Of a stretch of DNA of 32,682 nt, positions 7,727 to 24,794 are shown one piece after another. The DNA lies in IMG/VR virus record IMGVR_UViG_3300009059_000037, positions 1-32,682 of that record, one strand, 5' to 3'. Position numbers and translations under genes: made by a program. Positions within the stretch are counted from its first letter, which is position 1, and every line of letters begins with the position of its first letter. This stretch comes from a virus. The notes below the pieces were generated by a model, which was given only the letters and a program-made list of their open reading frames with translations, was not told the DNA's origin and made no database searches.

Positions 7727-9757
7727 CTACTTGATTTTAATCTCACAATAGTCTGTTGTGCAGTAGGCTTCGCCTTGAGCCTCAAGATTATCTACCCCGT
7801 CATAAATAGCAGAAAAGTCAATGTGCTTTATTTTGCCAATATAAGACTCATACTGCTCTTCCGTAATTCCTGTGTATGGTTGCTGTGGATAAACAGTGTT
7901 TCCCATTGGCAAGAATGATACAGCCTTTAATTGACCTTCATACATATGAAGAGCAGATGCAACATGCTTTGATTCTGTTTCTTTGTCAAATGAAAGTGTG
8001 ACAGATACTCCGTTGTCTGACCAGTACTTTTGAGCAGTTGCTGCTAAAGCAATCTTTTCAAACAATGTTACATCTTTTTCAGAACGCTTTTGGCCTGATT
8101 TGATTGGAAAGTAAACCACTGATGTATTTGCTGAAACAACATCTTTTTCAACATTATAATTTGCTGCCTTAAACAAATGCAGCATTGGATCAGTATCTCC
8201 AAATCGGATTGCACGAAGATAAAATTCTCCACCTGGACCCCAGTGAACTCCAGGAGTTGCACCAGAAAGAATTGAAACTGATCCTGATGGCTTAACTGTT
8301 GTTACACGAATTGATTCACGAACACATAGCCATTCTGAATACTGGTGGTCATAGTGACGAATCTTGTTGTATCCCTCGTCCATCCATTCACGAACTGCAG
8401 GCAATCCTTTTTGATCTGCAAAAGATGCAATACCAGTGAGAGACGTACCAATACGACGATTACGTTGCATGATACCGTTTGTTTGTGGCCAGTGTGTTGG
8501 AAGAAGAGTGACAGTCTTACCATAAAGATATGCAAACTTTAATGTCTTGAGGAAGTCTTCCTTGGATTCATGACGATTTAAGTGCACTTCTACAAGTGTA
8601 CAAAGTTCGTAAGATTCCAATGGCTGCTCCGCACAAGGATTAAAGCCCATAACACGATAGTCTTTTCCATCTGCTGGATCTAATAGACGACCATAGTTAC
8701 GAGCAACATCAAGCCAAATAAATCCTGGCTCTCCATTGTTAACAATTAGATCAGTATACTTTTCGTATTCCATTCCAACTGTTGCAGAAATTGAGTTATT
8801 GGACATCCAAGCCCACCCTGGATTTTCTGAGTCAAAGGAGTTACGCTCTGGAAAAACCTCAGCATTTTTTAAATTAATGAAGTCTTCATCTCCTGCTGCT
8901 CCTAGAGCCAAGGTTGCAGAACGACGAACATTTCCTGAAACTACACAGGTTCCAATAAGATTAATAATATCTGTAATGGCACGGCTATCTAGGGTTTCTC
9001 CTGCTCTACCGCCAATGACCTTGTCTATCTGTGTATGTAGTTGAATAAGTGGTGCTGGACCGCTGGCGACCCCTCCAAAGCCTTTAATTGGTGCTCCTAG
9101 AGGACGGATGAGGTCATAGTTAAACTTCTGAATAGACTGATTTGGTCTTAGGTAGGAGTTTAACAAAAGACGAACTGAGTCTACCCAACCTTCACGGGTG
9201 TCTGGAATTTCAAACACCTCTTCTGGCTCTGTAGGGGAATAGATTTGAAAATTCTTTTCCTGTCCTACAGTGTCAAACCCTACACCAATTCCTAGCATCA
9301 AAGCATCCATAACCCAAGCAAACAATGCACCAGGATCGTTCTTGTCAAGGTCTTTTGTAGATACCATTGCACAGTTTTGTAGTGCTGCAGAGTTCTTCTT
9401 CTCCATAGTCATAGGAGTTCCAAATGTCCACATACCGCGACCTGGTGGAGTCCACTTTAATTCAAACATTCTTTGAAATGCTTCTTGTGCAGACTTCTGA
9501 GCCTTATAGTCATTCCAGGGTAAACGATTTTCTTTAGCATGATTCTTTTGTACTGAATACATCCCCTCGATTACACGACGACAAACTTCGTGCCATCTTT
9601 CCTTAGTTCCATTTTCCTTCATGCGAGAATATGTACGAATAAAAGTAATTTCTCCAAGTGAATTTTCTGCTGCATCCTTAAACCCAAATGGGCTTTCTTG
9701 GCTCTTGTACTTTTCTACGAAGTCCTCTGGAAGTTTAAAACTAAAAAAATCTGACAT
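7727..9757 (-). CDS. Adenosylcobalamin-dependent ribonucleoside-triphosphate reductase (class II)
   Basis: A 676-residue, single-chain ribonucleotide reductase that would convert ribonucleotides to deoxyribonucleotides for phage DNA synthesis. Visible key residues are Cys129 (QNCAMVS), the thiyl-radical Cys375 and Glu377 in NPCAEQPLE, Cys386 (ELCTLVEVHLN), and the C-terminal redox pair Cys666 and Cys671 in YCTTDYCEIK. The pair has the same spacing as in the Lactobacillus leichmannii enzyme. The lack of a separate small subunit or activase gene agrees with class II, which needs coenzyme B12 from the host. It is slightly shorter than the 739-residue Lactobacillus enzyme. The ATG follows AAAGGAC at a proper distance. 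It lies among structural genes but has its own terminator upstream and its own promoter, so it is a separate unit. Confidence 0.95.
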   Translation of the reverse strand: MSDFFSFKLPEDFVEKYKSQESPFGFKDAAENSLGEITFIRTYSRMKENGTKERWHEVCRRVIEGMYSVQKNHAKENRLPWNDYKAQKSAQEAFQRMFELKWTPPGRGMWTFGTPMTMEKKNSAALQNCAMVSTKDLDKNDPGALFAWVMDALMLGIGVGFDTVGQEKNFQIYSPTEPEEVFEIPDTREGWVDSVRLLLNSYLRPNQSIQKFNYDLIRPLGAPIKGFGGVASGPAPLIQLHTQIDKVIGGRAGETLDSRAITDIINLIGTCVVSGNVRRSATLALGAAGDEDFINLKNAEVFPERNSFDSENPGWAWMSNNSISATVGMEYEKYTDLIVNNGEPGFIWLDVARNYGRLLDPADGKDYRVMGFNPCAEQPLESYELCTLVEVHLNRHESKEDFLKTLKFAYLYGKTVTLLPTHWPQTNGIMQRNRRIGTSLTGIASFADQKGLPAVREWMDEGYNKIRHYDHQYSEWLCVRESIRVTTVKPSGSVSILSGATPGVHWGPGGEFYLRAIRFGDTDPMLHLFKAANYNVEKDVVSANTSVVYFPIKSGQKRSEKDVTLFEKIALAATAQKYWSDNGVSVTLSFDKETESKHVASALHMYEGQLKAVSFLPMGNTVYPQQPYTGITEEQYESYIGKIKHIDFSAIYDGVDNLEAQGEAYCTTDYCEIKIK

Positions 9758-9875: not shown

Positions 9876-10652
9876 TTACGTATATCTTTTCTTAACCCTA
9901 TATTCTCTTTTGTATTTGCCTGGATTGGGGCTTCCGTCTTTATTATACTGTTCACTCATATAGAATGTTTTTTCAGCATGATAGTTAGTTTCTAAATCTT
10001 TGCTAAGATCTTCGTTGACTTTCATAGTCCAGTTTGTACGCTTAAATGGAATTATCTGAACAACTGGTGTACCTGCTGGTATTACTCCCTCAAAACTATT
10101 TTTCATTAAGAATGGGAACAGCACTGGCATAAAGAAGTTATCTGTGTCCACTACCCCGTCAAGGGTCTTAAATGGTGCTTCTATTCCATCTAGTGGGTGG
10201 GTAAATAGGCAACTATATCCTGGGGGAGTTTTGATTAGCCAGGAGTTTTTCCACTTAAAGGCTTCTTCAATATATTCTGGAGATAAAGAGACTGTATTGA
10301 TCTGAGTTATGGGATGTCGTGAAATTGGCTCCTCATTCATAATTTTTGCAGGACCAATAAATTTTGACTCCTTTAGTTCTTTATCATATGAAAAACTATA
10401 CTCTTCTTTTGTAACTAAATAATATCCCATTGTTAATGCATCTAATATTGGTATACACTTCTTTATAGTTAGATCGTCTTGTAGTCCAGGCCCTAATTGT
10501 TTTATTCCTGGCATATCTTTGTACCATTTTGGAAGAGATATTTTTTGTGGAACTAGGTGAAATTGCTTATCTATATTCATGAACTCTATGACGCCTTCTT
10601 CTGAAGGAGTATAGGTATCTACTCTTTTTGCTGGCTTTTTATTCCATTTCAT
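9876..10652 (-). CDS. Unknown phage protein, DUF6065-like, paralogue 1
   Basis: A 258-residue soluble protein. The layout recalls the DUF6065 family as I remember it: a CIPILDALTMGYYLV block near residue 75, then TPPGYSCLFTHPLDG, PFKTLDGVVDTD, and a closing IPAGTPVVQIIPFKR. This pattern of a beta-rich cupin-like protein is paralogous to the adjacent upstream gene (THPMNQFQLPFTT and IPKGTAMYQIIPVKR there). The start ATG lies inside the upstream gene, a 14-base overlap, so translation is coupled. It is the last gene of its operon, closed by the terminator at 9.82-9.85 kb. Function is unknown; the family assignment is from memory of motif order and should be treated as a hypothesis. Confidence 0.7.
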   Translation of the reverse strand: MKWNKKPAKRVDTYTPSEEGVIEFMNIDKQFHLVPQKISLPKWYKDMPGIKQLGPGLQDDLTIKKCIPILDALTMGYYLVTKEEYSFSYDKELKESKFIGPAKIMNEEPISRHPITQINTVSLSPEYIEEAFKWKNSWLIKTPPGYSCLFTHPLDGIEAPFKTLDGVVDTDNFFMPVLFPFLMKNSFEGVIPAGTPVVQIIPFKRTNWTMKVNEDLSKDLETNYHAEKTFYMSEQYNKDGSPNPGKYKREYRVKKRYT

Positions 10653-11394
10653 AGACTTTTTTTACCCATAAGTTGTCTCTGTAAAAACCATACAAAACTT
10701 CTCTGGCTTTTACTGTTATAAACTGTCCCTTTTTGCTAACAACATTTACTGGAACAACTCCTAGCCACTTCTTTCTTTTTACTGGGATTATCTGGTACAT
10801 TGCTGTTCCCTTTGGAATGATACCTGTCCAGCCTTCTTTAATATACCAGGGAATTCTACCCCCCGCAATGAATCTATCGCTTTCCATGAAGCCTGAAGAG
10901 GTTGTAAAAGGCAACTGAAACTGATTCATTGGATGTGTAATAATCATGCTGTATCCTCTTGGCAATTTCCATCCCCAATGCCCTGACCAAACCATATGGT
11001 TTTGAGCATGTCCATGAGGTCTTGGAACAGTATGACCAATTGACCCTGATCTTTCTTCAATTAGGCCTATATCCTCTACTTGAACATACTCTCCATTTGC
11101 ATCAAGTTCTACGTATCTCCACTCAAGATTACTTGAACCGTCATTCTTAAGAATTTCAATGGCGCATGAAAGAGGTTGTATATATCCAGCGATTATAGAA
11201 TCAAGGAAAGGATTGCAGGACTTTAATCCTCCTGCACGTAAACTTGGATCTGGAATATTTAAAGACCCATCTTCTTTATTTATAAAACGCTCACCTTGAC
11301 GATACCATTCTGGAACAAACTGGCTTGATGGCTGTGGAGGTAAAATAATTCTTGGATCGCTATTAGGATCTAAATTAAATACTACTCTTTTCAT
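10639..11394 (-). CDS. Unknown phage protein, DUF6065-like, paralogue 2
   Basis: A 251-residue protein homologous to its downstream neighbour. Shared landmarks in order are PPQPSSQFVPEWYRQGE near the start (compare KISLPKWYKDMPG), SCNPFLDSIIAGYIQPL (compare KCIPILDALTMGYYLV), PRGYSMIITHPMN, a PFTTSSGFMESDRF block, and IPKGTAMYQIIPVKRKKW. It has an extra His-rich turn (HTVPRPHGHAQNHMVWSGHWG, about residues 120-140), absent from paralogue 1, which could be a metal site; that is a guess. The ATG lies one base beyond the stop of the upstream gene, with a weak ribosome binding site (AAAGAG). Function unknown. Confidence 0.7.
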   Translation of the reverse strand: MKRVVFNLDPNSDPRIILPPQPSSQFVPEWYRQGERFINKEDGSLNIPDPSLRAGGLKSCNPFLDSIIAGYIQPLSCAIEILKNDGSSNLEWRYVELDANGEYVQVEDIGLIEERSGSIGHTVPRPHGHAQNHMVWSGHWGWKLPRGYSMIITHPMNQFQLPFTTSSGFMESDRFIAGGRIPWYIKEGWTGIIPKGTAMYQIIPVKRKKWLGVVPVNVVSKKGQFITVKAREVLYGFYRDNLWVKKVYEME

Positions 11395-11395
11395 T

Positions 11396-11863
11396 CTAAA
11401 CTCTTTCTTTTAGTTTTGAAACATAATCTTTAAAAGTTGATAACTTGGGTAGTTGTGGTAAACCAGCATTAAGTCTACTCAGATAATCTTTAAATGTTGG
11501 TAGGTCGTCATCTTCTTGTTGAGGCTGTGTTGGCTCATCAGGAAGGTCAAACTTTCCATCTTCATATTTAAACCCTGGCTTTATTACCTGTCCTTCTGGG
11601 ACTTGAACTATCTCTGGAGAACTAAGAAGGATTGCAGCCATTTTTGGCTGACAATGAATAATTTCTACAACTTGACCATCAATTACAAATGCAATATTTT
11701 CAGTGATAGTAGAAACATCTGGGGCAATGTTTTTCTTAGTAAGATACTTATACTTTAATCTTGGGTAGGGGTTTATTCTTCTAGTTTTATGAGCAAGGCG
11801 ACCCAAAGCATCAGATCTCTTTTGCTTTTTAAACTGCTTAGATAATTTTTTATACTCGTCCAA
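11396..11863 (-). CDS. Small protein with VIDGxVV module
   Basis: A 155-residue protein. The N-terminal 50 residues are strongly basic (KKLSKQFKKQKRSDALGRL). Residues about 55-110 hold a beta-rich module reading FVIDGQVVEIIHCQPKMAA, then ILLSSPEIVQVPEGQVIKPG and YEDGKF. Similar modules occur in the genes at 22365-22745 and 20746-20955. The C-terminus repeats TFKDYLSRL and TFKDYVSKL, two short amphipathic helices. The start is TTG (11863-11861): it directly follows the stop of the upstream gene, whose last codons form a good ribosome binding site (GAGGTGAG). Similar modules are common in phage hypothetical proteins; I know of no proven function. Confidence 0.7.
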   Translation of the reverse strand: MDEYKKLSKQFKKQKRSDALGRLAHKTRRINPYPRLKYKYLTKKNIAPDVSTITENIAFVIDGQVVEIIHCQPKMAAILLSSPEIVQVPEGQVIKPGFKYEDGKFDLPDEPTQPQQEDDDLPTFKDYLSRLNAGLPQLPKLSTFKDYVSKLKERV

Positions 11864-13591
11864 TTAACTCACCTCAAATTGATCAATAGTACTTGTGGCA
11901 GCAGCGCCATAAGTAACTGCTCCCTTAAGTATACCATGAACTTTGCTCTTTGTTTGACCAGAGATCGTAGTTGCTTGGCTTGATCCAATTTGAGTGGTAG
12001 CACCTGTATTAGAATATGCTGATACAGTTACTGAGTTTCCAGATAGTACTGTTTTAATTGCTGCGATTGTTCCAGCAAATGCTAGGGTTGCCACTGTTGA
12101 AATGGTTCCCGCAACATTTTTAATAATCTTAACCTTGTCATTATTTACACAGTTACAGGCTGAGTATACAAGAGCGTTGGTGGCATTACATTGAGTTCCA
12201 TATACTGCTGTATTGGTAGCATTACACTGTGTGCCATATACTGCTGCGTTGTTAGCATTACATACTGTTCCATAGACTGTTGCGTTGTAAACATTACACT
12301 GTGTGCCATATACTGCTGCGTTGTTAGCATTACACTGAGTTCCATACACTGCGGAATTTGCTGTTGCACAGAAAGTTGCTGATGTGTAGTTTGTGCTTGC
12401 ACAGAATGTAGAGGCCACAGTTGCATTGGCTGAAGTACATCCATAGTTTGGATTTACTGCATTTGTTGAAGTACATCCATATACTGCGCTTGTTGCAGCA
12501 AATGATGCACAGCCATAGTTTACGTTTGTTGGAGCATATCCTGTACATCCGTAAGATACGTTTGTTGCAGCAGTTGCGTTACAAGTAATTCCATATGCTG
12601 CTGCTGAATATGCGTTACATGTAGTTGGTCTACCAAGGTTTCGACAAGATGTTCCTGTTGGACATGATCCACAGTTTGAACATGGGGAAGCATTTCCACC
12701 ACTGCCACCGTAAGGTGTACCTGTTGCTACTAATCCATAAGTAACTGCGCCTTGACCATATGTTGAACAGCCACCTGCTGAGTTCATGACAGTTCCATAA
12801 GCAGAACATCCTCCTCCACCGTAACCAGAAACTCCATAAGAGGTACATCCTCCTCCACTGTAACCAGAAACTCCATAAGAGGTACATCCTCCACCGCTAT
12901 AAGAGGTTACACCATATGCTGCACAGTTACCACCAGAGTATGAAACAACTCCATATGCTGCACAGTTACCACCAGAATAGTTTGTACCATAAGAAGCACA
13001 GTTTCCTACTCCGTAGTTTGTTCCGTATGTAGCACAGTTTGATGCAACGTTCATTACAGTTCCGTAAGTTGAACAAGATGGTGCCACATTCATTACATTT
13101 CCGTAAGTAGCACAGGTAGAGTTAGCATTAACTTGAGTTCCATAAGTAGAACAAGTAGATGCTTGATTTAAAACAGTTCCGTAAGTTGAACAAGTAGATG
13201 CTTGATTTAAAACAGTTCCATAAGTAGAACAGTTTCCGCCAGATGAACATGTTTGACAAACTTGCTCTGTATCAACATATGTTCCCCACCAGTTATTTGA
13301 GTCTGTTACCCAAAAGGCTGTTCCAACTCCTGGGCCTACGCCCTTGGCTGTTATGGTTACATCTTGTTCAGAAAAGTTGAGGGTTGCTAGTGGGTATGAT
13401 GATCCTGAATCAGAAGACGATGCCATGTTTGATGAAATACCCCAAGATCCACGAACATTGGACCAAGAAGCCCCTGTTGCTGTCTTGCCAAGACTGGCAG
13501 AGTCAGAACGAACAAATGTTTCTATAACATTCTTTAAGGCCTTTAATCTTGAAGATACCTTTGCGGATCTTCCTCCTGTTTTTCTTGGCAT
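11864..13591 (-). CDS. Cys-rich repeat protein: beta-sandwich with a 370-residue Cys/Tyr/Gly insert
   Basis: A 575-residue protein. Residues about 25-110 (RSDSASLGKTATGASW, then VGTAFWVTDSNNWWGTYVD) and about 481-575 (VKIIKNVAGTISTVA, NSVTVSAYSNTG, ATSTIDQFEVS) read as the two halves of one concanavalin-like beta-sandwich seen in many phage adhesins. Between them sits a 370-residue insert. Units of 12-13 residues start at Cys121: 13 of CxxYG type (CSTYGTVLNQAST). A small five-Cys knot follows (CSNCGSCPTGTSC), then 12 units of type CNANNAAVYGTQ. The whole protein has about 34 Cys. The regular spacing suggests a solenoid or ladder of stacked Cys and Tyr, perhaps cross-linked outside the cell. 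The ribosome binding site is GGGAGA. It follows a tail-fibre gene, so a virion surface role is likely. Confidence 0.8.
   Translation of the reverse strand: MPRKTGGRSAKVSSRLKALKNVIETFVRSDSASLGKTATGASWSNVRGSWGISSNMASSSDSGSSYPLATLNFSEQDVTITAKGVGPGVGTAFWVTDSNNWWGTYVDTEQVCQTCSSGGNCSTYGTVLNQASTCSTYGTVLNQASTCSTYGTQVNANSTCATYGNVMNVAPSCSTYGTVMNVASNCATYGTNYGVGNCASYGTNYSGGNCAAYGVVSYSGGNCAAYGVTSYSGGGCTSYGVSGYSGGGCTSYGVSGYGGGGCSAYGTVMNSAGGCSTYGQGAVTYGLVATGTPYGGSGGNASPCSNCGSCPTGTSCRNLGRPTTCNAYSAAAYGITCNATAATNVSYGCTGYAPTNVNYGCASFAATSAVYGCTSTNAVNPNYGCTSANATVASTFCASTNYTSATFCATANSAVYGTQCNANNAAVYGTQCNVYNATVYGTVCNANNAAVYGTQCNATNTAVYGTQCNATNALVYSACNCVNNDKVKIIKNVAGTISTVATLAFAGTIAAIKTVLSGNSVTVSAYSNTGATTQIGSSQATTISGQTKSKVHGILKGAVTYGAAATSTIDQFEVS
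12152..13231 (-). repeat. Cys-repeat array inside the coding region
   Basis: The segment encodes about 25 units of 12-13 residues, each with one Cys, in two sub-arrays. At the DNA level units recur every 36-39 bases, and neighbouring units are nearly identical, for example the two CSTYGTVLNQAST copies and the CNxxNxAVYGTQ copies near 12.2-12.35 kb. The sub-arrays differ in phase, with Tyr-Gly after Cys in the first and before the next Cys in the second. Length change by slippage or recombination is expected. Confidence 0.85.
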
Positions 13592-13625: not shown

Positions 13626-15788
13626 TTATGCTGTTAGATCTCCAGTAAGTAGCCATTCATCAGTATCTACCTTGACTAAAACCATAGATGAGTACTGAGT
13701 TCTTGACTTATTCTGAGAATCTGTTGATCTAATTGATGTTGTTCCTGGAGTTACTGCAGTTACTGTTAGTTGTCCTGCACCAAATTGATAAAATTCAATG
13801 TACGTTCCGACTGGGAACGCTACTGATGCGTTGGTTGGTACAGTAATACTTGTTGCTGTTGCTCCTGTAAATTTAATTGATGCGAACTTATCGCCAAGAG
13901 CAAGAACTCTTGTTGTTGTTGCATCAGGTGTAAATGTATAAAGTTCTGGAGTCTTTGCAGCAAGTGATGTTGTAACTGTTGAAGCAAAGTTTGCGTCATC
14001 ACCAAGGGCTGCTGCTAACTCATCAAGAGTGTTGAGTGCTGCTGGTGCTCCTGTGAGAAGAGCATTTACTTGTGATGTAGCATCTGCGATTGCTTCTGAT
14101 TTAGCAGTAGCAATTGCTGAAGCCTGGGCTGTTGAAACTGGCTTACTTGTATCTGCAGTATTATCTACAAGACCAAGCCCAACCATTCCTTTAGTAATAC
14201 CAGCAACTGTGCCAGTAAAAGTAGGAGAAGCGATTGGTGCTAGTAGTCCAAGGGCTGTGTCAAGTCCTGAAATTTTAGATGTTGCAATTGCTGCAGTGGC
14301 TGAAACTTTTGCGTTTGTTATTGCTCCGTCTGCAATTTTTCCTTCTGTTACTGCAAGTGCAACAATTTCGTTTGTTCCAACCGAATCGTCACTCATCATT
14401 GATTGTGAAATTGTATTAGCAGGAAGTGTTACAGTCCCTGTAAATGTTGGAGAAGATAATGGTGCATATGTTGTTGAAGCAGTTAAGGAATCAAGTTTTG
14501 CATCAAGTGCTGTCTGTGTAGCAGTTGAAACTGGCTTTAGTGCATCTGTTGTGTTATCAACATTTCCTAGGCCTACATGTGTCTTAGTAACACCAGATAC
14601 CGTACCTGTAAAAGTAGGGGATGCTAGGGGTGCTTTTAGATCAAGCGCTGTGTTAACTGTCGCTGTCAATGCTAGTGCTGAAGTATCTGCAATACCATGT
14701 ACATCTGTTGTATCAATAGAGTGTGTGCTTACTGCTGAGTCCGAATAAGTCTTAGTTGCGAGTGCTGCAGTGTCTACAATGCCGTGAATATTTGTTGTAG
14801 CATCTTTGTGAGTTGTTACTGCATTATCTGCATAAGTCTTAGTTGCTACTGTTGAATCTATGTCAATAGTAATTGTATTTGCTTCATCATCATAGGTCTT
14901 GTCTAATCCTGTACCCGCAACTAGGGCAGCGTTTACTGCTTCTTGTGCTGCTTCAGTAATTGAAGAAGACTCTGCTTTAGCATCTAGTTGTGTTTGAACT
15001 GATGAAGTAATTCCATCAAGATATCCTAGTTCTGTTGAAGTAAGTGTACCAATTGATGTTGTTGCTGGAAGAATAACTGTTCCTGTGAATGTTGGGTCTG
15101 CTGATGTGGCACGAAGTCCTACAGCAGTATTTAGGCCAGAAATGTTTCCTTCAATAGTAGTAATGTCAGTCTCAATTGTTGAGATATCTGAAACCAAATC
15201 AGTAACTGCTGATTGTGGGATTGCGCTAAAAGTATTGCTTGCACCAGACATTGTCTTATTAGTTAATGTCTGAGTGTTAGTTGTTCCAACAACTGCTCCT
15301 GTTGCGCCGTGTGTTGTAGTATCTACTTCGTGATCACTTAAATTTTCTGCTAGTTGGTCAGTAATAAGAGTCATTGATGCAGCGTATGATGCGTCATCAT
15401 TTACTGCTGCTGCCAACTCGTTAAGTGTATTAAGGGCTAAAGGAGCGCCATCAACAAGTGCGGTAACTGCATTATTTACAGCAGTTGTAATTTCTGTATC
15501 AAGGCCGACTAGAGAAGGAATTTGCTCAGAAGGAATGACTCCTTGAGCATTAAGAGAGGCAACGCCATTTGCTTGGCCTTTTGTAGTAAGAGGGACATAA
15601 TCATCTAGTGAGCCACCTAGATCTTCAAGGTTCTTGAAGTAAGATAGGTCTTCCCACTGATTAACACCGTCACCAATTTTAAACTGGTTGGTATCTGTTT
15701 CGAATCCAATTTCGCCTGGGGCTAAAGTTGGGTTTGCTGTTGTCCATTGTGTCGCAGTTCCTCTGCGCTGTTGCATTCTAGTTGCCAT
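13626..15788 (-). CDS. Tail fibre protein with RGTAxQW head and repeat shaft
   Basis: A 720-residue fibre. Residues 1-50 (MQQRRGTATQWTTANP, GEIGFETDTNQFKIGDG) match the N-terminal attachment domain seen in Bordetella phage Mtd-like and other tail proteins. The shaft alternates helical ALNTLNELAAAVNDD units (twice) with beta repeats of the type ASPTFTGTV, and carries a VVGTTNTQTLTNKT hinge also found in the fibre at 16328-18421. The last 100 residues form a knob (from about 620: FTPDATTTRVLALGD, ending VKVDTDEWLLTGDLTA) homologous to the end of the gene at 24801-25430. It probably forms a trimeric fibre for host binding. A promoter about 40 bases upstream and a clear AAGGAG site support the ATG. 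Confidence 0.88.
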   Translation of the reverse strand: MATRMQQRRGTATQWTTANPTLAPGEIGFETDTNQFKIGDGVNQWEDLSYFKNLEDLGGSLDDYVPLTTKGQANGVASLNAQGVIPSEQIPSLVGLDTEITTAVNNAVTALVDGAPLALNTLNELAAAVNDDASYAASMTLITDQLAENLSDHEVDTTTHGATGAVVGTTNTQTLTNKTMSGASNTFSAIPQSAVTDLVSDISTIETDITTIEGNISGLNTAVGLRATSADPTFTGTVILPATTSIGTLTSTELGYLDGITSSVQTQLDAKAESSSITEAAQEAVNAALVAGTGLDKTYDDEANTITIDIDSTVATKTYADNAVTTHKDATTNIHGIVDTAALATKTYSDSAVSTHSIDTTDVHGIADTSALALTATVNTALDLKAPLASPTFTGTVSGVTKTHVGLGNVDNTTDALKPVSTATQTALDAKLDSLTASTTYAPLSSPTFTGTVTLPANTISQSMMSDDSVGTNEIVALAVTEGKIADGAITNAKVSATAAIATSKISGLDTALGLLAPIASPTFTGTVAGITKGMVGLGLVDNTADTSKPVSTAQASAIATAKSEAIADATSQVNALLTGAPAALNTLDELAAALGDDANFASTVTTSLAAKTPELYTFTPDATTTRVLALGDKFASIKFTGATATSITVPTNASVAFPVGTYIEFYQFGAGQLTVTAVTPGTTSIRSTDSQNKSRTQYSSMVLVKVDTDEWLLTGDLTA

Positions 15789-22757: not shown

Positions 22758-24794
22758 TTATAGGTAAGCACATCTATATTCAACTCCTGATGTACATATT
22801 GAACCGCTACCGCAACCTCCGCTGCTGCATCCTTGAGATACACAGTCTTGGTTCGCAACGTTAAATGATGTACAAAGTCTGGATACCTCTTGTGCTGCAG
22901 TTGTTGTAGTCGTAGTTGAACCAGTAGCAACACAACCTGTGTCAGTAGTAACATTATCGCATGTTCCTGGAGTCCAACAAGTATAAGTGTTCATTGTTCC
23001 AGAAGCACATACAGATGTTGAAACAGATCTTGTGCCAGTGTAACTTCGTGCTGGATCGCAAGTATTTCCAGAGCAGTCAAGGCCTGTTGTTGTCGTGGTT
23101 GCAGGGGATGCTGTTGTCGTTGTCGTGGTTGCAGGGGATGCTGTAGTTGTGGTAGTCGTTGGAGCAACTGTGGTTGTAGTAGTAGTTGGAGCAACTGTGG
23201 TTGTAGTAGTAGTTGGAGCAACTGTGGTTGTGGTAGTTGTTGCAGCACCACTTGTAGAAATAGAAGCACTGGCATCTGCTAAATAGCCGTTGTTAGAATT
23301 TTTTGCGGTAACAAAAACTGTATGTAAAGTGTTTGGAGCAAGACCAGTAAATGTCTTAGATGTTGACCCTGTTGTTTCTGATGGATAGACTGCATCATTA
23401 TCAGAGTATTGAACAGTATAGAATGCAGTTCCTGCTGGAGGGTTTGACCAAGAATAAGTTACAGAATTTGTAGTTGAAGATATACCGCTAATAGTAAATG
23501 CACCTGGTGCTACAGTGGTTGTAGTTGTAGTTGTAGGTGCTACAGTAGTTGTAGTTGTAGTTGTATTTACAGGTGGACAACTTGTTGGTGCTGCAGGCTG
23601 AGAAACTATTGAAACCGAAATACTTGTTGCTGGAGGATTTAAACCTTGAAGAAATGAAGTGTAGGCAGCAATTGCTTGGTTAATATCTTGTACAAGCGTG
23701 TTATCGGAATTAACAGGATATGATTCTTCTACAGGGGTTCCGAGGAAGCAATATGATAGATACGCTGTACCAGTTGCTGGTGCTGCAGTTGTTGTAGTAG
23801 TTGTTGTAGGGGCAACCGTTGTAGTGGTAGTTGTAGTTGTTGTAGGGGCAACCGTTGTAGTGGTAGTAGTAGGATTATTTGCAGGATTTGCAGTAAATGT
23901 TGATGAACCAGTAGAACTTGTATACCCATCCTTAGATGCAGTTATATAAACCGTATAGGATTGATTTGGTGTTAAATTTTCAACAATAAATTCTTCGGGG
24001 AATTCGGGATTCTGAGTTCCAAGAGTAGAAGTATAAGTTGTTGTATATGTTGAATCAAAGTTAGTTATGTTAAATGTTGCATATACTGATCCTGGATAAA
24101 CTTGCCAGCCAGCATATGTTTGAATTACTGGTGTTGGTAGTGTTGGAAGTGGTGCAACAGTTGTTGTAGTTGTTGTAGTTGTAGTTGTAGGAGCAACTGT
24201 AGTAGTAGTTGTAGTAACAACTGGGTGAGCAAAAGTAATGGTTTGTGAGTTTCCAGCACCAGCACTATTTATCACAGTTATAGTGACTGTATAAGACTGC
24301 CCTTCAGTCAAGTTAACAAGGTTTCCTGGCCATGTTGCAGTGTATGCTCCATAGTTGTATGGTGATGGATATAAAGATGAGTTTCCAGTAAACAGATAAT
24401 TATTTATATTGCTTCCAGACCAAGAAAGAGTTCCAGTAGTAGTACCAGTTTTTGTATATGTTAAATTACTTATAGTTGCAACTGGGGCTGATGTTGTTAC
24501 AGGTCCACTGCCACCGCCAGAAGTTGTTGTGGTAGTTGTTGTTACTGCTACATAGTTATAAATAGAAAGATCAACAGTGGTTTCATAATCAACTAGAGTT
24601 CCAGATGCAGGAGTTTGTAGTGCAACCTTATTTGATAGATTAGAGTCTGATGTTGAGGTTGTAGAAATAATTGAGGCAACAGTCAGTCCTGCTGATTGTA
24701 TTGCTGAAATTGCTTGTGCCTGTGTAAGTCCAGAAAGATTTGGTACTAAGACCATACCTTTTGATGAAGACCATAAGCCAAGGAATCCAAGCAT
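22758..24794 (-). CDS. Mucin-like virion protein: PASTA + Fn3 domains on poly-Thr linkers
   Basis: A 678-residue protein. Residues about 16-79 form one PASTA domain (VPNLSGLTQAQAISAIQSAG, then VALQTPASGTLVDYETTV), a fold known to bind muropeptides in Gram-positive kinases and penicillin-binding proteins. About four fibronectin-III-like beta domains follow (near 100-195, 222-305, 345-410 and 430-515), joined by linkers of TTTTTTVAP repeats. The last 100 residues hold two Cys-rich knots (LDCSGNTCDPARSY, QGCSSGGCGSGSIC). No signal peptide is present, as expected for a virion part. It resembles actinobacterial Thr-rich wall proteins and might be glycosylated. The ribosome binding site is weak; the ATG lies six bases after the upstream stop. 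Confidence 0.82.
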   Translation of the reverse strand: MLGFLGLWSSSKGMVLVPNLSGLTQAQAISAIQSAGLTVASIISTTSTSDSNLSNKVALQTPASGTLVDYETTVDLSIYNYVAVTTTTTTTSGGGSGPVTTSAPVATISNLTYTKTGTTTGTLSWSGSNINNYLFTGNSSLYPSPYNYGAYTATWPGNLVNLTEGQSYTVTITVINSAGAGNSQTITFAHPVVTTTTTTVAPTTTTTTTTTTVAPLPTLPTPVIQTYAGWQVYPGSVYATFNITNFDSTYTTTYTSTLGTQNPEFPEEFIVENLTPNQSYTVYITASKDGYTSSTGSSTFTANPANNPTTTTTTVAPTTTTTTTTTVAPTTTTTTTAAPATGTAYLSYCFLGTPVEESYPVNSDNTLVQDINQAIAAYTSFLQGLNPPATSISVSIVSQPAAPTSCPPVNTTTTTTTVAPTTTTTTTVAPGAFTISGISSTTNSVTYSWSNPPAGTAFYTVQYSDNDAVYPSETTGSTSKTFTGLAPNTLHTVFVTAKNSNNGYLADASASISTSGAATTTTTTVAPTTTTTTVAPTTTTTTVAPTTTTTTASPATTTTTTASPATTTTTGLDCSGNTCDPARSYTGTRSVSTSVCASGTMNTYTCWTPGTCDNVTTDTGCVATGSTTTTTTAAQEVSRLCTSFNVANQDCVSQGCSSGGCGSGSICTSGVEYRCAYL
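23161..23241 (-). repeat. Three 27-base tandem repeats encoding TTTTTTVAP
   Basis: Three near-identical 27-base units lie at 23161-23187, 23188-23214 and 23215-23241. Similar units recur near 23.10, 23.51, 23.80, 23.84 and 24.16 kb as poly-Thr linkers of the same gene. Such tracts are prone to slippage and likely vary between related phages. Confidence 0.8.

Follow-up and report, generated by a model that had tools for sequence, protein, structure and literature searches.

A putative disulfide-stapled hairpin stalk within a ConA-like tail adhesin of uncultured phages

The adhesin encoded in the window, which is the whole stretch of DNA analyzed here (an IMG/VR virus record of 32,682 bases), is best read as a ConA/CBM66-like domain in which one β-hairpin has grown into a giant two-stranded antiparallel stalk stapled by nested disulfides. 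We give this reading a probability of about 0.8. From the sequences we strongly infer disulfide oxidation, nested intrachain pairing and an antiparallel hairpin; the pairing and the topology follow from the even number of cysteines, the palindromic spacing and the co-varying lengths of the two arms.

Cysteine arrays and carrier domain of the window protein

All 34 cysteines of the 575-residue adhesin lie within residues 112 to 481 of the translated ORF. In array 1 (C121 to C275), successive cysteines are separated by 13, 13, 13, 13, 13, 12, 12, 13, 13, 13, 13 and 13 residues, and the unit is CxxYG, with YG at +3/+4 of 13 of 13 cysteines. Array 2 (C325 to C468) proceeds in steps of 12 with one step of 11, and here YG precedes the cysteine (YGxxC in 6 of 13 and YGC in 4 of 13). 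The complete ascending series comprises C112, C115, C121, C134, C147, C160, C173, C186, C198, C210, C223, C236, C249, C262 and C275, and the descending series comprises C325, C337, C349, C361, C373, C385, C397, C408, C420, C432, C444, C456, C468, C479 and C481. These positions bear out the original prediction, made from this DNA alone, of about 25 repeats with one cysteine every 12 to 13 residues over about 360 residues, in two sub-arrays of opposite Tyr-Gly phase, as well as the five-cysteine knot that it had noticed (C304, C307, C310, C316 and C325). The prediction had also called about 34 cysteines unusual for a phage structural protein, and the other structural genes of the window indeed encode 0 to 5 cysteines, with the exception of a PASTA/fn3 gene with 14. 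The product of that gene (22758 to 24794, minus strand) is 678 aa long; besides its PASTA and fn3 domains it has extended Thr-rich linkers and a Cys-rich C-terminus, and its cysteine number is even. The same adhesin protein was present in two near-identical strains with longer contigs.

AlphaFold2 was run on the window protein together with 36 family members. Residues 20 to 111 and 478 to 575 folded together as one domain with a pLDDT of ~92 to 98. The last strand of the N-terminal half, ...WVTDSNNWWGTYVDTEQV, runs into the insert, and the first strand of the C-terminal half, VNNDKVKIIKNV, pairs with the ascending strand. At the base of the insert, strands at 101 to 112 and 121 to 125 were predicted to lead outward, and strands at 475 to 479 and 481 to 493 to return. 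The rest of the insert was poorly modelled, with a pLDDT of ~35 and no regular stacking or turns visible, and the model of one relative, L254, behaved in the same way. The best fold match of the carrier domain in VIA-align was the C-terminal domain of Douge gp20 (Z of 16.6 over 167 residues), followed by CBM66 (Z of 16.3); both alignments spanned the two halves, at a sequence identity of only 14 to 18%. Foldseek against the PDB alone gave weak matches, and the carrier domain had no Pfam family match at an E value of 0.1. The whole model was matched by six uncharacterised uncultured-phage proteins in BFVD, indicating that such sequences are already deposited, though nameless. The models thus indicate that both flanks are one ConA/CBM66-like β-sandwich domain. 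In the expectation of a regular solenoid between two halves of a concanavalin-like domain, the packing of the halves and the giant loop between them stood, whereas the solenoid did not appear in the model.

Table 1. Coordinates of the adhesin gene, its predicted parts and its neighbours in the window
Feature	Position	Strand	Basis or remark
Tail adhesin (minor tail protein) with ConA-like domain and putative stalk, 575 aa	11864..13591	(-)	ORF; relatives in >80 viral-contig loci
N-terminal half, ConA/CBM66-like domain, residues 1-111	13259..13591	(-)	AlphaFold2 pLDDT >90 over most of 20-111; VIA-align Z 16
Putative ascending arm, residues 112-275, 15 Cys, unit CxxYG(8)	12767..13258	(-)	Cys positions
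Putative tip/knob, residues 276-324, 4 Cys (304, 307, 310, 316)	12620..12766	(-)	Motif GNASP..C..C..C.....CRNLG
Putative descending arm, residues 325-481, 15 Cys	12149..12619	(-)	Cys positions, mirror symmetry
C-terminal half, ConA/CBM66-like domain, residues 482-575	11867..12148	(-)	AlphaFold2; VIA-align
Tail fibre gene with Mtd_N domain, upstream	13626..15788	(-)	Pfam PF18454, E=2.7e-14; related gene near family gene in 62 loci
155-aa gene, downstream	11396..11863	(-)	Begins at base adjoining adhesin stop; match in 24 loci via shorter ORF 11396-11641
Two paralogous genes, PHROG 7084, one weakly DUF6065-like	9876..11394	(-)	Accompany adhesin gene in 66-67 loci

Parity, mirrored spacing and matched change in related inserts

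Whole-protein searches found no match in INPHARED, Pfam, PHROGs or the PDB sequences, and neither did searches with three relatives as queries; the flanks alone gave nothing above chance level against INPHARED. Searches with DNA patterns of the repeats turned up no comparable long open frame outside the phage's own strains. A bare period-12 cysteine pattern led to Cys-rich frames that are unrelated and, for the most part, low in complexity; these were reused as controls. One member of this control set, a 464-residue open frame in frame +1 of L087, is an unrelated phage protein with 54 cysteines in C-x3-C arrays in its C-terminal half. Entry to the family was gained with a degenerate DNA pattern built on the N-terminal flank's ConA motif, LGx4GxxWx4GxWG[IV], which gave 19 loci beyond the phage's own strains. 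Most of them encoded the plain domain without an insert, while L170 and L171 carried Cys-rich inserts at the same site. Searches with flank alignments gave overlapping sets of 65, 43 and 21 loci, and more than 80 related viral-contig loci were found overall; the one-genome-per-species contigs contained no relatives of the adhesin. The search alignments (A1, A3 and A7) consisted of the flanks and included only the outermost cysteines. Because the searches rested on the flanks, the make-up of the inserts is unbiased by the search.

The insert site is common to the family and lies between ...W(V/I)TDSxNWW... and ...YIRxIQSxxNxVS.... Insert length ranged from 0 (L219 to L222) to ~490 residues (L177). 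Tyr, Thr, Ser, Gly, Asn, Cys and Ala abound in the inserts, whereas charged and aliphatic residues are scarce; His, Asp and Glu are nearly absent, and the insert of the window protein has no His. Cysteine steps varied from 1 to 52 residues across the family, and a regular spacing of 12 to 13 was confined to the window protein and L279. In viral contigs L256, L270, L272 and L217, the same or a corresponding site is occupied by a Tyr/Thr/Ser-rich insert without cysteine, and in the first three of these the positions of Tyr, Thr, Ser and Gly showed no mirror symmetry. The occurrence of such Cys-free, Tyr-rich inserts in a few relatives indicates that the disulfides are not indispensable. L219 to L222, which lack an insert, carry a polyproline-linked, Cys-rich C-terminal region with 44 cysteines, which is an alternative way to carry Cys modules. 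At two loci, L201/L245 (3300043444_000140) and L202/L246 (3300046779_000116), the family gene consists of two overlapping frames split near the hairpin tip, for which a sequencing error, a true frameshift and a programmed shift are all possible.

The number of cysteines was even in 38 of 38 Cys-containing clusters at 60% identity and in 47 of 47 at 80%, with no odd count. The counts were 4, 6, 8, 10, 12, 14, 16, 18, 20, 22, 24, 26, 30, 34, 36, 42 and 46, and the folded part of the parsed members contained no cysteine outside the insert. For this parsing, residues preceding the probable start codon were disregarded, and three loci without a full frame were excluded. At a chance of one half per cluster, 38 even counts out of 38 have a probability of ~4e-12. 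Among 144 unrelated Cys-rich control ORFs, 78 (54%) had an even count. L294 to L299, L305 and L309, which were fetched after the hypothesis had been formed, were all even; a further locus, L308, was the contig of L190 again, already used. The even counts throughout indicate that all cysteines must pair, in line with the earlier suggestion that the insert may become disulfide-linked. The original prediction had proposed to count repeats in related phage genomes; the number of cysteines in the parsed Cys-containing inserts ranges from 4 to 46, at the same site of the same domain.

If the cysteines were instead reduced, or bound zinc or iron-sulfur, the insert would be a flexible or metal-loaded element. 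The CNC and CxxC pairs at the base and the assembly of virions in a reducing cytoplasm are consistent with this, as is a pair of neighbouring thioredoxin-like ORFs in the window's phage (contig G001 (L146), 84847 to 85397, plus strand, contig coordinates). However, phages with ribonucleotide reductase commonly encode redoxins, which hence carry little weight; thioredoxin/glutaredoxin matches occurred and were not specific to the stalk. DsbA was found in none of 14 records, and sulfhydryl oxidase Evr1/Alr gave no match, but its control likewise gave none. Furthermore, metal sites of four cysteines need counts that are multiples of four, whereas 6, 10, 14, 18, 22, 26, 30, 34, 42 and 46 were observed. 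As these many counts are 2 modulo 4, four-Cys sites cannot use all cysteines, and the inserts offer almost no His, Asp or Glu. We therefore regard reduced or metal-bound cysteines as very improbable.

The cysteine steps were also palindromic: the ascending arm read from the base resembled the descending arm read backwards. In L177, the ascending steps were 17, 17, 17, 14, 18, 18, 9, 12, 9, 12, 21, 13, 11, 10, 13, 13 and 9, and the mirrored descending steps were 16, 16, 16, 14, 19, 19, 10, 11, 10, 11, 21, 13, 11, 9, 14, 13 and 9. The arms of L268 read 2, 3, 3, 5, 5, 6, 5, 48, 8, 6, 14 and 3, 2, 8, 5, 5, 6, 5, 48, 8, 5, 12, and in L233 a step of 41 was mirrored by one of 42. Over 46 members, the combined permutation test gave a Z of -19.5. 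With one protein per clade (26), the Fisher p was ~4e-36, and it was 2e-22 when the conserved base steps were left out. The mean step difference was 1.8 residues in register and rose to 4.6 to 5.1 after one arm was slid by 1 to 3 rungs, and the control ORFs had a mean z of 0.09 in the mirror test. The test was not significant for L189, L193, L205 and L206; L210 was mirrored only in two-step sums, its phase being different, and the newly fetched L309 (p of 0.17) and L305 (p of 0.07) showed weak symmetry. The window protein alone gave a p of 0.007, with asymmetry at the second step (6/11) and at the knob (29/9). Palindromic spacing is a prediction of nested pairing (C1 with Cn, C2 with C(n-1)) and not of pairing between neighbours or of a solenoid.

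These data bear directly on the proposal in the original prediction of a stacked Cys-containing β-solenoid of the Tenebrio antifreeze type, with disulfides within or between successive turns. The period of 12 to 13 residues in the window protein is what such a fold would show. In the family, however, the spacing runs from 1 to 52 residues and is mirror-symmetric, and the cysteine number is always even, though each unit has one cysteine. In addition, the lengths of the arms co-vary across the middle, the units stand in opposite phase in the two arms, and the AlphaFold2 model lacks regular stacking. A solenoid thus seems extremely improbable, and the same observations point to an antiparallel, two-armed hairpin.

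Changes of step length between relatives agreed across the arms (r=0.90 over 507 comparisons, which are non-independent). Examples of matched changes are +12/+12 from L214 to L248, -9/-9 from L198 to L213, -15/-15 from L200 to L273, and +10/+10, -15/-16 and +11/+10 from L230 to L237. A rung was gained as two cysteines at mirrored places, as seen in L188 compared with L183 to L187, where two separate insertions are involved, and in L248 compared with L214. Three clusters kept every cysteine column (22 of 22, 24 of 24 and 20 of 20), with 21 to 56% of their other insert columns varying. Between L253 and L254, DNA identity was 80% in the insert as opposed to 97% in the flanks, from which it appears that change or recombination is faster in the stalk loops than in the carrier domain.

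Architecture, role and genomic surroundings of the putative stalk

In the proposed hairpin, the window protein would have 15 cysteines going up, 4 in the knob and 15 coming down, making ~17 disulfides. C112 would pair with C481, C115 with C479, C121 with C468 and so forth up to C275 with C325; the pairs in the knob would be C304-C316 and C307-C310. The two rungs at the base would adjoin the folded carrier domain. An interchain ladder, in which the ascending arm of one chain is bonded to the descending arm of its neighbour in a trimer, would leave a sequence pattern identical to that of intrachain rungs. Phage fibre proteins are often trimers, and T4 gp37, a split domain around a needle (PMC6957217), illustrates the intertwined form that would result. 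In the monomer models, however, the strands of both arms adjoin the carrier domain, which is the simplest start for an intrachain ladder, and the interchain arrangement appears unlikely to us.

With intrachain rungs, the stalk would be loose in the reducing cytoplasm. Once the cell has lysed, pairing would start with the cysteines at the base and zip the ladder up outwards. The stalk would project the knob, the presumed site of receptor contact, away from the tail. At full extension, 163 residues per arm at 3.3 Å would reach ~54 nm, which is an upper bound. Changes of stalk length come as matched additions to both arms. The protein is likely a stalk-and-knob receptor-binding adhesin. The tip segment of the window protein, GGNASPCSNCGSCPTGTSCRNLG, resembles the tips of L175 (GNAAPAASCGLTSAQATACGGCKNLG) and L180. 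Despite this common knob motif, the stalks have 34 cysteines in the window protein, 46 in L175 and 24 in L180; by these comparisons, the knob seems to be conserved on stalks that differ. Furthermore, segments like CNVTGNRYC, CDVVGNRFC and CDRTGNRFC recur between clusters.

The hairpin may also be real and serve as a variable-length spacer or decoy surface, with recognition by the ConA-like domain rather than by the knob. The carrier fold is a glycan-binding fold, and a recombinant piece of the Douge central fibre, comprising the tip and the C-terminal part, binds mycobacterial LAM/AM and alpha-glucan fragments (PMC13033339). By its fold, the carrier domain of the window protein may likewise bind a surface glycan. 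In several pairs, moreover, the carrier domain varies more slowly than the stalk loops. However, the knob motif shared by the window protein, L175 and L180 on different stalks, and the CNVTGNRYC-like segments, suggest a function at or near the tip. We consider a mere spacer or decoy possible but doubtful. Receptor binding through the knob remains the preferred role, and these proteins probably form a large, apparently undescribed virion-protein family of "protein stem-loops", that is, disulfide-zippered hairpins with up to 23 rungs, perhaps tens of nm long, with arms that evolve through compensatory insertions and gains of cysteines in pairs, and with interchangeable receptor-binding knobs.

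The genes around the adhesin (Table 1) fit a tail-fibre/adhesin module, and the PHROG 7084 paralogues are candidates for a chaperone or a tail part. RVT_1, the reverse transcriptase of DGRs, was found in none of 14 records, including the window's phage and possibly fragments, while the control matched in 3 genomes. A ribonucleotide reductase gene (7727 to 9757, minus strand) sits within the tail/head gene cluster. Its product shares 62% identity with the counterpart in Actinomycetia phage DSL-LC01, and the portal is 45% identical to the portals of Streptomyces phages. Because of these similarities, the host is likely among the Actinomycetota.

Relation to known systems and implications

Nested disulfides between two antiparallel strands are known from theta-defensins and β-hairpin antimicrobial peptides. 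Theta-defensin has 18 residues, three rungs and a cyclic backbone. For the phage insert, the parity and symmetry of its cysteines strongly imply nested rungs like those of this cystine ladder, of which there would be 2 to 23, in a linear segment within a virion-protein domain; a head-to-tail cyclic backbone is absent, the insert being a linear part of a 575-aa protein. In T4 gp37, the two parts of the D10 domain (residues 811 to 881 and 1010 to 1026) enclose an elongated needle that ends in the receptor-binding tip (PMC6957217), and the window protein likewise has a discontinuous globular domain around its insert. The T4 needle, however, is trimeric and holds seven irons through His, whereas the window insert lacks His and would have Cys pairs instead. 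In the bovine ultralong CDR H3, a β-sandwich loop has lengthened into a stalk that bears a disulfide-rich knob (PMC8602281). It belongs to an antibody with an Ig fold, is ~50 to 70 residues long and has its disulfides in the knob, not along the stalk. The two stalks would be alike in design and are unrelated by descent, the phage carrier being ConA/CBM66-like and not Ig. As the Ig fold, the His iron sites and the cyclic backbone are each absent, the phage stalk belongs to none of the three systems. The C-terminal domain of Douge gp20, a tail protein, has the same fold over both halves, but no giant Cys insert has been described for Douge.

We found no description of such a protein in the open-access papers searched, which agrees with the earlier statement that no described phage protein of this design was known. 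As far as the libraries searched tell, the stalk architecture is new; precedents exist for the carrier fold and for the general role as a tail adhesin. If the proposed structure is true, the topology of a protein can be read from its sequence, through the mirror symmetry and parity of its cysteines, where structure prediction fails. The two arms of a protein hairpin would then show compensatory evolution of length, like the two sides of an RNA stem, and it would be a puzzle how matched rungs hundreds of bases apart are gained without lasting odd states. Such a protein would also offer protein design a natural stalk, disulfide-stapled and tunable, whose tips can be exchanged, and it would explain the receptor reach of a group of uncultured phages.
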